A stretch of DNA of 24,015 bases from positions 1-24,015 of IMG/VR virus record IMGVR_UViG_3300042456_000195, one strand, 5' to 3'. The notes below the pieces were generated by a model. The model made no database searches and was not told where the DNA came from. It saw nothing but the letters and a program-made list of their open reading frames with translations. A program made the translations under genes and the position numbers. Positions 17,114-22,930 of the stretch are shown here, in pieces; within the stretch, counting starts at the first letter, position 1, and each line of letters starts with the position of its first letter. This stretch comes from a virus.

Positions 17114-17406
17114 AAACTACTTGAACGGTAGGAGCGCGTCTTTTCAAAGTGGGTATAGTTAGCTAGGCGCTTCCGTATCTTGCTTACCGCATCTTCTCTG
17201 TCTAGTAGCATGGAACAGATATAGACAAGGTTGTACTGCCTTGGATGTTCTTCGAAAAAGAAGCCATGCAAATCCTGCTTAAAAAAGTCGGTCAGTTCTT
17301 TAGCTGGTGCGCAATAGTCTGCGATTGCTCTTTCTATAACTGCTAGCCATAGCAATACTTCCGGCTGCGTTGGCGCGTCTACGTGCTGAGCTTGTACTTC
17401 TGTCAT
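17110..17406 (-). CDS. Conserved small phage protein, WLAVIERAI motif
   Basis: 98 aa from ATG 17406, which forms an ATGA overlap with the upstream stop; ATG 17430 would give 106 aa. A PEVLLWLAVIERAIADYC helix is followed by KELTDFFKQDL and a C-terminal YICSMLLDREDAVSKIRKRL helix that resembles a small helix-turn-helix. I recall similar small proteins in many phages (W..VI..Ai.D ... ic..l..d...v..ri) without known function. Last gene of the leftward operon; its stop overlaps the holin stop. Confidence 0.65.
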   Translation of the reverse strand: MTEVQAQHVDAPTQPEVLLWLAVIERAIADYCAPAKELTDFFKQDLHGFFFEEHPRQYNLVYICSMLLDREDAVSKIRKRLANYTHFEKTRSYRSSSF

Positions 17407-17735
17407 TTTAATGTCGAAGTCTTTTGACATTGGACTAAAGCTAGGAAGTCCTCCAGGTACATAGTTACTAGCCAGGGCCGGTTGTTCTTACGGTGACATA
17501 CTATTGGAGTTTTGTCACCGCAGTCTCTTGTAGCTTGGTCAATAGCCTTGTCTACGTTAAGATTCTGAACCCGCTTACATTCGATGTGGTAATCAGCCAA
17601 TTCGGTGCAAACTACATCAGAGTCGCCAGCCTTACCGCAGAACTGTTGGGTACGCCTAGCAGTAAATCCATGCTCCTTTAGCTTGTTTGCAAGCTCTCTT
17701 TCTCCTGCGGCGCCCTTGGCTCGTGAGTCCGTCAT
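17403..17735 (-). CDS. PD-(D/E)XK nuclease, Holliday-junction-resolvase-like
   Basis: 110 aa from ATG 17735, one base after the upstream TAA, with AAGG about ten bases upstream; ATG 17756 would add 7 residues. The chain has the resolvase layout: AKGAAGERELANKLKEHGF with Glu12, GDSDVV with Asp38/Asp40, and IECKR with Glu52 and Lys54. These residues would bind metal and cut branched DNA. The size fits the Hjc-like phage nuclease family. Lies in the early operon with RecT and an SSB-like protein, so it likely resolves recombination or replication intermediates before packaging. Confidence 0.8.
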   Translation of the reverse strand: MTDSRAKGAAGERELANKLKEHGFTARRTQQFCGKAGDSDVVCTELADYHIECKRVQNLNVDKAIDQATRDCGDKTPIVCHRKNNRPWLVTMYLEDFLALVQCQKTSTLK

Positions 17736-17736
17736 A

Positions 17737-18342
17737 TTAGTAATAAACCTTATCACTATTAGCTACTGACCAGCGGTTACAATCTTCTGCTGACCAGATT
17801 GTTTCAAGTGTAGCATATTCTTTTGTCGGTGCAGTCGGATTATTTCCAATAAAGAAGGCATCTTTAAAAACTAATCTATTGGTAGGCAAAGCTGCAACTT
17901 GTCCGTTATCAAGCAAAACAACGTGGGCACACTTGTTTTGGTCTGGCTGTAACAGAAAAGCAGATTCAGACTCAGAATCAGGTAACCAATCAATCGTAAA
18001 CCAATACGTGCCAGATACCTTAGTTTTGTCTTTAAGCAGTGCATCGCATTGATAGCCTTTAAACATATCAAAGGTAGTTACTATGGGGCGGTAACTGAAA
18101 CAATCCCATAGTTGAAGTAAGTCCAAAGAGTATTCACCAGAGTTGCCAACATCAAGGTCATGCCACAACCAATGCAAAGGGATATGACGAAAGTGCGCGC
18201 CTGATTCAAGTAATACGTGGAATTGTAGCGCTCTTGCTTTGTATGATTGTATTGCAAATGCGTAGCCATGTTCAAAACCTTCTTTACCGTTTAAGTTCTT
18301 GTTCTCTATCCAAACTTTAAGGGGCGGTATATCTGCGTTCAT
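17737..18342 (-). CDS. Conserved phage protein of unknown function
   Basis: 201 aa from ATG 18342, preceded by a strong AAGGAGGAGGG and in an ATGA overlap with the DUF551-like gene; the longer frame to 18378 lacks this. The pattern YAFAIQSYKARALQFHVLLE, HIPLHWLWHD, LDLLQLWDCFSYRP and DQNKCAHVVLLDNGQVAALP is one I remember from a family found in many phages, with no assigned function. It has no TM or signal peptide, and it is rich in aromatic residues. The family is probably a beta-rich fold. Confidence 0.7.
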   Translation of the reverse strand: MNADIPPLKVWIENKNLNGKEGFEHGYAFAIQSYKARALQFHVLLESGAHFRHIPLHWLWHDLDVGNSGEYSLDLLQLWDCFSYRPIVTTFDMFKGYQCDALLKDKTKVSGTYWFTIDWLPDSESESAFLLQPDQNKCAHVVLLDNGQVAALPTNRLVFKDAFFIGNNPTAPTKEYATLETIWSAEDCNRWSVANSDKVYY

Positions 18343-18779
18343 CCCTCCTCCTTCGGCGGCGCAGGTAGCTCTTGCCAATGCGTAACGCCTTCTACAATGT
18401 CATCATATTTATCGTACCATTTTGCAGAATAATAATAAGCAACGTCATGGTCATGCCAACCATCGCCACTAATAAGTACCAACACTGTTATTTCCTCATC
18501 CTCCGGCAGCCTCTCCTTTACGCTAATCCAACCATTTACATCCACCATTTTGCTCATGTCGAGAATATGCTCGCAAGTATCCGGCATCACCTTGTCGACA
18601 TCAGCAACCTGATCTTGTAACTCTTGTATCCTAGCCTCTGCCTCCTCTAGCGCTGCGTGCGCATGTTCCTGTGCTGCTTTATAGCCAGCGAGGAAGGCGT
18701 CTTTGCTTAATATATAAGCATTGGTTGTTAAACAAGAATTCGCATACTCCTCTGCTAGTTCTTCTGGTGTTTTACTCAT
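18339..18779 (-). CDS. MSKTPEELA-module protein fused to DUF551
   Basis: 146 aa from ATG 18779, in an ATGA overlap with the upstream HTH gene. N-terminal MSKTPEELAEEYANSC and AFLAGYKAAQ form a module shared with its neighbours; residues 37-57 are a coiled-coil-like linker; the C-terminal 65 residues match DUF551 (WISVKERLPEDEEITVLVL to VTHWQELPAPP). DUF551 is common in phages but has no known function. Its first 32 bases of coding strand are identical to those of the gene at 19465 (18748-18779 and 19434-19465), which points to duplication or exchange. Confidence 0.75.
   Translation of the reverse strand: MSKTPEELAEEYANSCLTTNAYILSKDAFLAGYKAAQEHAHAALEEAEARIQELQDQVADVDKVMPDTCEHILDMSKMVDVNGWISVKERLPEDEEITVLVLISGDGWHDHDVAYYYSAKWYDKYDDIVEGVTHWQELPAPPKEEG
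18748..18779 (-). repeat. 32-bp direct repeat, copy 1 (start of module gene)
   Basis: Identical to 19434-19465. It covers the first ten codons of the gene starting at 18779. The partial third copy near 19003-19030 differs at a few bases. Confidence 0.85.
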
Positions 18780-19030
18780 AACGTAAAAAACTCAATAAAC
18801 GGAATGTTCAATTTATTTGCCATAGCTACTAAGTCATGTAGCATTATTCGCTGCTTGCCTAATTCTAAATTTGTAATTGAGCTACGACACAACTTTACTT
18901 CAGGCAAAAGATATTCAGCGAATTCTTTTTGCGTCATGCTCAGTCGCACTCTGTGTGTTTGTATTTTGCTGCCCACGATTGCATAAATGCGATTATTGCT
19001 TGCCGCCAACTCTTCAGGTGTTTTACTCAT
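18776..19030 (-). CDS. MSKTPEELA-module XRE-type HTH regulator
   Basis: 84 aa from ATG 19030, overlapping the upstream stop. After a shared start MSKTPEELAASNN, residues 22-82 are a Cro/CI-type HTH: HRVRLSMTQKEFAEYLLPEV (first helices), then LCRSSITNLELGKQR as the recognition helix region and DLVAMANKLNIPFIEF. This would bind an operator as a dimer. It lies in the early operon with two closely related module genes. Possible targets are the palindromes near 22055 and 23906, but that is inference. It may instead control its own operon. Confidence 0.78.
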   Translation of the reverse strand: MSKTPEELAASNNRIYAIVGSKIQTHRVRLSMTQKEFAEYLLPEVKLCRSSITNLELGKQRIMLHDLVAMANKLNIPFIEFFTL

Positions 19031-19220
19031 CTTTTAGCTCCTTTTCTTTGCCTCTTTCCCCTGCTCTATATCCAGCAATAAACGCATAAGCCAACCAATG
19101 GCGATCAAATGGCCCGTCGTTTAATAGGTTGGAAAAATCATTTGCTAATTCCTGCATTGTTTTGTTTTGACCATGAGTTTTGCGTTCAAACATAGCCATA
19201 AAATCGTCCGGTGTTCTCAT
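19023..19220 (-). CDS. Small module-family protein (AFIAGYRAG)
   Basis: 65 aa from ATG 19220, in a TAATG overlap with the upstream gene. Starts MRTPDDFMAMFERK, a diverged form of MSKTPEELAEEY, and ends with WLAYAFIAGYRAGERGKEKE, the second block of the family module. No other domain is present, so this is close to the bare module. Function unknown; the neighbours suggest it belongs to a small expanded gene family. Confidence 0.62.
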   Translation of the reverse strand: MRTPDDFMAMFERKTHGQNKTMQELANDFSNLLNDGPFDRHWLAYAFIAGYRAGERGKEKELKDE

Positions 19221-19465
19221 TAAAAAAATCCCTTTTTTTCGATATAGGTAAGCTTAAACTTTTCAATTAAAGGTTTTGCATCGGGCTCCTTCTCGCCATG
19301 TTGCTTGCGAAGCTCTACATACAAATCAAAAATTTCCTTTTCTGACATTTCCCGTCCAGCCTTATATCCAGCGATAAACGCCTTCTCGCAAGCTGCTGTC
19401 ACTGAGTGTGTATCGTTAATCCTATCGCCATATTCCTCTGCTAGTTCTTCTGGTGTTTTACTCAT
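19220..19465 (-). CDS. MSKTPEELA-module small protein
   Basis: 81 aa from ATG 19465, in an ATGA overlap with the 51-aa TM gene. MSKTPEELAEEYGDR and KAFIAGYKAGRE are the shared blocks; the rest is a charged helical tail of unknown type (KPLIEKFKLTYIEKKG). First of four family genes in transcript order. It shares 32 identical bases at its start with the gene at 18779. Confidence 0.66.
   Translation of the reverse strand: MSKTPEELAEEYGDRINDTHSVTAACEKAFIAGYKAGREMSEKEIFDLYVELRKQHGEKEPDAKPLIEKFKLTYIEKKGFF
19434..19465 (-). repeat. 32-bp direct repeat, copy 2 (start of module gene)
   Basis: Identical to 18748-18779 over 32 bases, covering the first ten codons of the gene starting at 19465. Confidence 0.85.
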
Positions 19466-19617
19466 TTTATTTCCTTTGCTTCAACACACACATAACTCCC
19501 AGCGCTGCTTAAAAGTACGCCCCCTTTTGCAGCGCAATTATTTTTAGAAACGCGAAGAAAATAGAAACTAGCGAATACAATCAATAGTCCGATTGCAGCA
19601 ATTAAAAGCTCTTTCAT
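19462..19617 (-). CDS. 51-aa single-TM protein with two-Cys tail
   Basis: Frame from ATG 19617 to TGA 19462-19464, the TGA overlapping the next ATG. RBS GAGAGG lies six bases upstream. One TM helix at about 4-21 (LLIAAIGLLIVFASFYFL), then a CAAKGGVLLSSAGSYVCVE tail with two Cys around a GG. Similar TM plus C...GGVL...VC proteins recur in phages (memory). It is well supported by overlaps on both sides. Function unknown. Confidence 0.72.
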   Translation of the reverse strand: MKELLIAAIGLLIVFASFYFLRVSKNNCAAKGGVLLSSAGSYVCVEAKEIK

Positions 19618-20865: not shown

Positions 20866-21627
20866 TTACGCTTCCACAGGTTGCTCATCTTTGACATCCT
20901 CCGTAATACACTGAGTTAATCGCTCAAGCCTAATAGGTGAGCGGAAAATTGACCCTGTCACCTCCTTAGCCCCACAGTTGCGCAAGTATCTCTCTGCTGC
21001 TAACCGCTGCTCACCATCCAGCCTAGACGTATCGTAAAAGGTGGGAATGCGCCTTGTTTTGGGCTCGTCGGGCTTCCTTACTTCTATAATATCGCCATGT
21101 ATTGTGTGGTCGATTGGTGGCGGCTCATACGCTTTAGGCGGGGCAAACTCGCTGGGCATCTCTTCTGCTGTGTAGAGTCCTCCCAGCTCGTTAATAAACG
21201 CCTCACGTATAGCCAAGCTCTTTGCGCATTTACTTAGCATTATACTAGGCATCGTTTTCCATATGGGAGTTTGCTTGCCGTACTCAGCCATATACGCCGT
21301 TGCTATGCTAGGGAAACGCCTGTCTTTACGGTAAACCTTAGCGGTTGCGCTGACTAGCTGCTTGTCATCCCACTCGAACGTGACCTCCATGCCGTCAAAC
21401 TGTGGGTGACTATTAGCTATTTTTAGGAACCCGTTGATTCCTGTCATTAGCTGCAAGCGCCCACCTGCTTTAATCGCCCAAATCTCTTTGGTAGCTGGAT
21501 TCAAGCCAGTTGCCCTACACATCTCAGCAAACAGCACAAACTCAGGGTCAGTCAGCCCTGGTGCTACTGTGTTGCGCAGCGCGTTAAGCATCTCTAAGTT
21601 ATTTCCTGCGGTTAATTCTTTGCTCAT
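20866..21627 (-). CDS. recT: RecT-family single-strand annealing protein
   Basis: 253 aa, ATG 21627 with AAGGAAGG seven bases upstream. Matches the RecT/Bet pattern: FAEMCRATGLNPATKEIWAI, LQLMTGINGFLKIANSHPQF, EWDDKQLVSATAKVYRKDRR, KTMPSIMLSKCAKSLAIREA, EELGGLYTAEEMP. It anneals complementary ssDNA and would be used in phage recombination and replication. The C-terminal 70 residues beyond the core are variable. No RecE or lambda-exonuclease partner is next to it, so the partner may be elsewhere or the small nucleases may serve. It starts inside the end of the Zn-ribbon gene. Confidence 0.9.
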   Translation of the reverse strand: MSKELTAGNNLEMLNALRNTVAPGLTDPEFVLFAEMCRATGLNPATKEIWAIKAGGRLQLMTGINGFLKIANSHPQFDGMEVTFEWDDKQLVSATAKVYRKDRRFPSIATAYMAEYGKQTPIWKTMPSIMLSKCAKSLAIREAFINELGGLYTAEEMPSEFAPPKAYEPPPIDHTIHGDIIEVRKPDEPKTRRIPTFYDTSRLDGEQRLAAERYLRNCGAKEVTGSIFRSPIRLERLTQCITEDVKDEQPVEA

Positions 21628-22738: not shown

Positions 22739-22930
22739 TTACTTTACGTTATCCACAGGTTGTGAGCAGTCTGCCCACAGGTAGCACTTTAGCGGCGTGT
22801 TAGTGGTGCGCTGTGACTCTTGGCGCTCGTCAACACGAGTTATCCACAGTTTGCCCCCAGCCTCAATGCCCGTACATCCAGATACAGCCGCAGCGATAAG
22901 CCCCAATAGTCCCAAAAGTATTTTTCTCAT
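22739..22930 (-). CDS. Small outer-membrane lipoprotein
   Basis: 63 aa, ATG 22930 with AAAGGA and the ATATATGA context. Signal peptide MRKILLGLLGLIAAAVSGC with lipobox VSGC (Cys19); +2 is Thr, not Asp, so an outer-membrane fate is expected. The mature part holds KLWITRVDERQESQRT and LKCYLWADCSQPVDNV with two Cys. Similar small RVDERQ lipoproteins appear in podoviruses as I remember. The coding sequence carries two DnaA boxes. May be an o-spanin-like or exclusion protein. Confidence 0.72.
   Translation of the reverse strand: MRKILLGLLGLIAAAVSGCTGIEAGGKLWITRVDERQESQRTTNTPLKCYLWADCSQPVDNVK
22749..22848. other. Two perfect DnaA boxes
   Basis: TTATCCACA at 22749-22757 and at 22840-22848 on the + strand, 91 bp apart, inside the lipoprotein gene and read in different frames there. 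AT-rich DNA follows at 22917-22970. Possible replication origin or DnaA site. Confidence 0.5.

Follow-up and report, generated by a model that had tools for sequence, protein, structure and literature searches.

Four overlapping genes near the end of a leftward operon

The window, by which we mean the whole stretch of DNA analysed, is a virus record of 24 kb (24,015 nucleotides) in which the structural genes lie on the plus strand and a leftward operon lies on the minus strand. This operon includes a gene for a RecT-family annealing protein (20866..21627, minus strand; PF03837, E 2.9e-29), and near its end four consecutive minus-strand ORFs, overlapping head to tail, span 19465-18339. The genome that carries the array thus also carries a RecT-class gene, which lies upstream of the array, on the same strand and in the same leftward operon. 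Downstream lies a PDDEXK / RusA-like resolvase-class gene (17403..17756, minus strand; PF24608, E 4.6e-7; phrog_244, E 1.9e-23). Promoter-like sites showed no excess in the operon.

Gene 1 (19220..19465, minus strand) encodes 81 aa and consists of a start block, the cassette GDRINDTHSVTAACEK, a second block and a tail that begins MSEKEIFDLYVELRKQHGEKEP. Gene 2 (19023..19220, minus strand; 65 aa) starts with MRTPDDF and carries the module internally, at residues 24-54 (profile E 2e-6), where it reads KTMQELANDF...AFIAGYRAG behind an N-terminal extension. Gene 3 (18776..19030, minus strand; 84 aa) is a start-block stub joined to an XRE-type HTH (HTH_3, PF01381; residues 26-81, 18788..18955, minus strand), which scores 27.6 bits and is above the Pfam gathering cut-off of 23. 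Gene 4 (18339..18779, minus strand; 146 aa) combines a start block, a cassette, a second block, a coiled coil and a DUF551 domain (PF04448; residues 83-143, 18351..18533, minus strand) with an E-value of 2.8e-13 and 51 bits, above the gathering cut-off of 22. The initial annotation, made from the sequence alone, had described four genes built on one N-terminal module, one of them joined to an XRE HTH and another to DUF551. Both domain assignments hold, and the MSKTPEELA start is present in three genes as described; the second block, which had been attributed to all four, occurs in three (AF[IL]AGY[KR]A in genes 1, 2 and 4) and is absent from the HTH gene. The proposal that MRTPDDF is a variant of the start is not clearly borne out, with the module of gene 2 aligning inside the protein.

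The two blocks are direct repeats in the window. Block 1 of gene 1 (19429..19465, minus strand) and block 1 of gene 4 (18743..18779, minus strand) are identical at 36/37 nt, and this match contains the perfect run of 32 bases that had been noticed between two of the starts. The block 1 stub of gene 3 (19005..19030, minus strand) is an exact copy of the family DNA consensus AAAACACCTGAAGAGTTGGC; searching the window with the 20-base block-1 consensus (at most 3 mismatches) returned one match, against 0.00 expected in shuffles. Gene 3 shares only about nine codons of the start and has no second block, and its start encodes the same nine residues as genes 1 and 4 with other synonymous codons. Block 2 was recovered both as repeat family D2 and by the module profile in gene 1 (AFIAGYKAG, 19355..19381, minus strand) and gene 2 (AFIAGYRAG, 19059..19085, minus strand); the copy in gene 4 reads AFLAGYKAA (18672..18698, minus strand).

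Two further ORFs adjoin the array. Directly upstream, a 51-aa ORF (window 19462-19617) with a hydrophobic N-terminus overlaps gene 1 by 4 nt, and sequence related to it is present in few loci. The gene just downstream (window 17737-18342) matches phrog_3704, labelled 'ferredoxin', with no Pfam match; we consider this label doubtful. The same gene is a constant downstream neighbour of arrays, in 28 loci.

A family of module genes in viral contigs

Relatives were gathered by IMG/VR scans with gene 1, gene 4 and the module alignment as queries. The two-block profile identified 171 distinct genes in 90 IMG/VR loci, with parts in the order start block (KTPEELAEEY), variable cassette of 8-34 residues, second block (FLAGYKAA) and tail. 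The tails are highly varied. DUF551 is present in about half of them, either immediately or after a linker or coil; other sequences make up the remainder. In total, the parts fall into about 100 clusters of cassettes and about 90 of tails. Up to five module genes occur per contig stretch examined, all on one strand in 58/58 contigs, and most of their starts overlap the preceding ORF (by 4 nt in 70/170 and by 8 nt in 27). Orthologues of gene 2 were found in two loci, L001 and L002; for the HTH protein of gene 3, no close relative was found in viral contigs.

Counted where the DNA was long enough, RecT is co-oriented with and upstream of the arrays in 30 loci and the PDDEXK/resolvase-class gene is downstream in 39 loci. 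Arrays often lie between these two genes, and their genomic position is conserved. Many arrays are on contigs on which RecT was not seen, the contigs being fragments.

We searched for the module outside IMG/VR using exact degenerate patterns or BLAST, which distant forms could escape. At the sensitivity used, the module profile had no consistent family match in Pfam or PHROGs and the module as a unit was not found in cultured phages; two contig scans of bacterial and archaeal genomes gave no confirmed relative, and we therefore name no host. Within cultured phages, the window segment 16900-24015 had no nucleotide match, gene 1 had no credible relative, and gene 4 was matched only via its coil/DUF551 half. 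In six regions surrounding DUF551 genes of cultured phages, the module profile likewise matched nothing significantly. Common descent with the N-terminal end of a DUF551 protein from a Bacteroides phage (EEAA...FIAGAEW) was tested and is not supported (hhalign probability 5%). The presumed capsid protein is only 25-34% identical to the capsid proteins of several cultured phages. The family is thus without a name in the libraries searched; its general kind, modular mosaic phage accessory proteins, is known, and what is unusual about it is the repetition of the joints in a tandem array.

Some relatives depart from the standard order. In L060 (3764-4399) and L012 (4001-4540), the module or its second block occurs twice in one protein, as would result from in-gene duplication or from fusion of neighbouring array genes. 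Bare block-1 starts on unrelated sequence, like that of the HTH gene in the window, are seen at L183:1324, L035:4460, L036:3606, L051:3536 and L172:1216, where they join tails found elsewhere behind a full module, or a predicted membrane segment. DUF551 tails, for example those of L023, L036, L037, L042 and L043, begin with a constant WISVKDRLP and end with a constant THWMPLP while their middles are exchanged, so that DUF551 itself looks cassette-like.

Cassettes and tails re-assort at the blocks

In a first set of 105 genes, 16/18 recurrent cassettes were found with at least two tails and 14/16 recurrent tails with at least two cassettes. The larger set gave 28/34 and 22/26, respectively. These counts vary with the clustering thresholds, and at a tail threshold as low as 0.40, single linkage joins unrelated tails and the counts fall. 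Strict pair counts, which are independent of clustering, comprise 38 pairs with the same cassette and unrelated tails, 66 with the same tail and unrelated cassettes, and 11 in which both are shared. Mean nucleotide identity in the same-cassette/different-tail pairs is 0.86 in the cassette and 0.45 in the tail; in the different-cassette/same-tail pairs it is 0.43 in the cassette and 0.78 in the tail. Among recent exchanges, identity is lost at or inside block 2 in 20/23 and 15/19 cases, a crossover position that can be given to the block only and not to a single base, since block 2 is itself conserved. Sequence comparison shows a modular build, combinatorial shuffling of the parts and exchange points at the blocks.

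Within-contig paralogues are no closer to each other at block 1 (mean identity 0.66) than are genes taken from separate contigs (0.69), a result that counts against a single recent local duplication. The initial annotation had proposed a recombination-driven family in which one leader module is attached to different C-terminal parts, and this description held on some 170 relatives. What was to speak against it, a single recent duplication with no domain variety in relatives, fits neither these identities nor the varied tails.

Recombinants involving the window

The window itself takes part in this re-assortment. The tail of gene 1 recurs behind a different cassette in L002 and L003. L028 is a syntenic relative in which both flanks of the array match the window at 82-89%; within the array, 18779..18685 of gene 4 corresponds to the first part of one L028 gene (gene X, 94.7%) and 18696..18501 to the second part of the next (gene Y, 90.3%), and the two matching parts overlap by 12 bases inside block 2, at 18685-18696. 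By this comparison, gene 4 is a chimera relative to two adjacent L028 genes, joined in block 2. Either the window lineage lost the intervening DNA by recombination between tandem genes or the L028 lineage gained DNA; both histories would involve an exchange in block 2. Assembly chimerism is an unlikely source of such a join, with a junction of 12 bases and the same type of join in many samples. Usual assembly k-mers are much longer than 12 bases.

A second join would lie in block 1. Homology between the window and L002 extends across gene 2 and 26 bases into gene 3, ending together with block 1; beyond this point L002 has a cassette gene and the window has the HTH. The starts of genes 1 and 4 depart from AAAACACCTGAAGAGTTGGC at synonymous positions while that of gene 3 matches it exactly, which argues against the gene 3 start having been copied recently from a neighbour. 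The stub is best read as the trace of a block-1 join.

Selection on the genes and on block codons

Values of pN/pS of 0.17 and 0.21 for cassettes and tails indicate purifying selection, and therefore working proteins. In the blocks, several codons are unusually uniform among genes with unrelated cassettes (Thr is ACA in 85/86 cases and Ala is GCT in 83/88). The mean normalised codon-conservation excess is 0.27-0.39 in the blocks and 0.35-0.38 at the start and end of DUF551, compared to 0.10-0.21 in the control, which used conserved columns of genes that neighbour the arrays in the same loci (RecT, PDDEXK and others). The excess in block codons is real but moderate, and it is uneven between codons. 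It may come from repeated exchange, from DNA-level constraint, or from both.

Homologous exchange and its alternatives

On balance we favour, as somewhat more probable than its alternatives together, a cassette-shuffling array of small phage accessory genes with early host-directed products, diversified by block-directed homologous exchange with a RecT-type protein as the likely agent. Paralogues often resemble each other at the DNA level in the blocks and nowhere else. Whether between co-infecting phages or inside a single array, homologous exchange at these blocks would create in-frame chimeras in which cassettes are swapped, duplicated or deleted, and the phage's own RecT-type annealing protein would be the most likely agent. 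Recombinases of the Rad52-like kind in phages tolerate divergence and require a stretch of 23-27 identical bases; for Red beta, the minimal pairing length is 23-27 bp (PMC3945230). At about 23-27 bases, the blocks are near this minimum. Among within-contig pairs, at least 23 identical bases are found in 4/121 for block 1 and 5/121 for block 2, while genes 1 and 4 of the window share 32. Because few within-contig pairs reach 23 bases, exchange within an array would be inefficient, or exchange would take place mostly between phages. The best-supported mechanism is homology-driven block exchange, which would occur mainly between co-infecting phages and sometimes within the array.

The array shares with the phage mosaicism attributed to Rad52-like recombinases (PMC3945230, PMC2327257) the exchange of diverged sequences via short identical segments and the presence of a RecT-family gene in the same genome. 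Those studies concern genome regions, whereas here the blocks are repeated in one operon and focus exchange inside genes. A more far-reaching proposal is that the blocks are kept as DNA-level recombination joints, served by RecT, which continually re-assort cassettes and tails for varied host-directed proteins; its logic would resemble that of gene-cassette or antigenic-variation arrays, here applied to the early proteins of a phage. We regard this as possible, though doubtful.

Conservation of the blocks could also reflect the needs of the protein only, helix packing or oligomerisation, with the blocks playing no part as recombination substrates; chimeras would then arise by random or illegitimate recombination and only those joined in the conserved hairpin would survive selection. 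Such an account agrees with the strong residue-level conservation of both blocks, with pN/pS of about 0.2, with a block identity of only about 0.66-0.69 between random pairs, and with the small number of paralogue pairs that reach the minimal pairing length. It does not explain why codon conservation in the blocks exceeds that in conserved columns of neighbouring genes (the ACA and GCT codons above), why the L028-type join sits in a 12-base identity, or why the HTH gene kept block 1 though the hairpin was lost. We give this account a limited chance of being correct.

More remote is a programmed system of the shufflon or cassette type, in which the blocks are dedicated DNA sites for a recombinase or nuclease. 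Two short motifs conserved at the nucleotide level, joins at both blocks and the proximity of arrays to RecT and a resolvase-class gene would all be expected of it, but the single strand in 58/58 contigs implies no inversion, and neither an invertase nor an integrase was present among the neighbours examined. Unlike a shufflon or other invertible array, the array has direct repeats and no inverted copies of a site. The low identity of blocks in random pairs and the similar codon excess at the start and end of DUF551 also speak against dedicated sites, and we judge this very unlikely.

The least probable account, by our estimate close to dismissible, is local tandem duplication followed by divergence and decay, with start likeness due to descent or translation-start constraint and an array largely without function: the tandem arrangement, the overlap of most starts with the preceding ORF (through which coupling may constrain start regions) and the 32-base identity in the window suit it, but it is already contradicted by the combinatorial re-assortment of cassettes and tails, as well as by within-contig paralogues being no closer than genes of other contigs, by purifying selection, and by block 2 being internal yet codon-conserved.

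Predicted protein layout and comparison with known systems

An AlphaFold model of gene 4 (mean pLDDT 82, pTM 0.40) has a helix at residues 5-15, corresponding to block 1, a turn, a helix at 19-64 that runs through block 2 into the coil, and a beta-rich DUF551 domain. The model of gene 1 had low confidence (pLDDT 66) and was set aside. With the gene 4 model, a fold search of the PDB returned nothing significant, and a viral structure library returned only DUF551 proteins and unnamed ones. In the favoured reading, the product of an array gene would begin with a short helix (block 1), followed by a turn within the cassette; a long helix would then pass through block 2 and present the exchangeable tail, in many cases a coiled coil with DUF551.

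A close counterpart among known systems is lambda Ea22, a very early, pro-lysogenic and tetrameric protein (PMC10834534); phages exchange its C-terminal domains, which include DUF551 (PMC10834534, PMC7093339). Lambda Ea22, with the lambdoid Ead-Ea22 proteins, and the array proteins share an N-terminal segment, a coiled coil and an exchangeable C-terminal domain that includes DUF551; both lie near recombination genes and are mosaic between phages, and the Ea22 gene lies in an early operon. The gene 4 model has the Ea22-type layout of N-terminal segment, long coiled coil and separate C-terminal domain, and exchange of the C-terminal domain between relatives is found in the array family. In contrast to Ea22, the array module is short, has two blocks and is repeated in tandem genes, the cassette between the blocks is exchanged too, and the phages are uncultured and, by the searches made, not lambdoid. 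Among gene 4's Pfam matches with E-values of up to 1, none was the Ead_Ea22 signature (IPR025153), and we therefore do not file the array proteins as Ea22 members. By analogy, they may work like Ea22. Taken together, the array is best read as a set of modular accessory proteins of Ea22-like type, whose diversity would come from homologous recombination, probably RecT-type, at the short constant blocks.

Most likely, the array proteins act early, as host-interaction or regulatory factors built on a constant scaffold, and varied arrays probably vary the action of the phage on bacterial hosts. The annotation had suggested an adaptive early-gene array; we infer 'adaptive' from pN/pS of about 0.2 and 'early' from the same-strand position downstream of recT.

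Domain shuffling is also described for phage regulators of the KilA-N, Bro-N and Rha type (Iyer et al. 2002, as cited in PMC6145125). As far as that citing account goes, the likeness lies in one N-terminal module occurring, in phage genes, together with several C-terminal parts that are unrelated to one another; the KilA-N/Bro-N/Rha modules it describes are DNA-binding domains of known families, whereas the array module is a putative short helical hairpin, not in Pfam or PHROGs, with two separate joints. For known functional classes, mosaic phage proteins are amply documented, and the authors of PMC10684548 anticipate more among uncharacterised accessory proteins. The array shares with the shuffled protein fragments of that survey domain-level mosaicism and signs of ongoing exchange; the survey covers mainly known functional classes and the array is an example among unknown accessory proteins. 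The family is a dense natural example of such mosaicism: recombinants are many, the joints are two and well defined, the parts recur and some exchanges are recent. With it one can test whether phage recombination is focused by short repeated coding blocks so as to diversify early proteins, and its parts list of cassettes and tails is usable for finding host targets.

Elsewhere in the window, GTTATCCACAGGTTG (22748-22762) and GTTATCCACAGTTTG (22839-22853) contain two TTATCCACA DnaA-box-like 9-mers, 91 bp apart. They lie on the early side of the genome, and the pair is possibly part of a phage replication origin.
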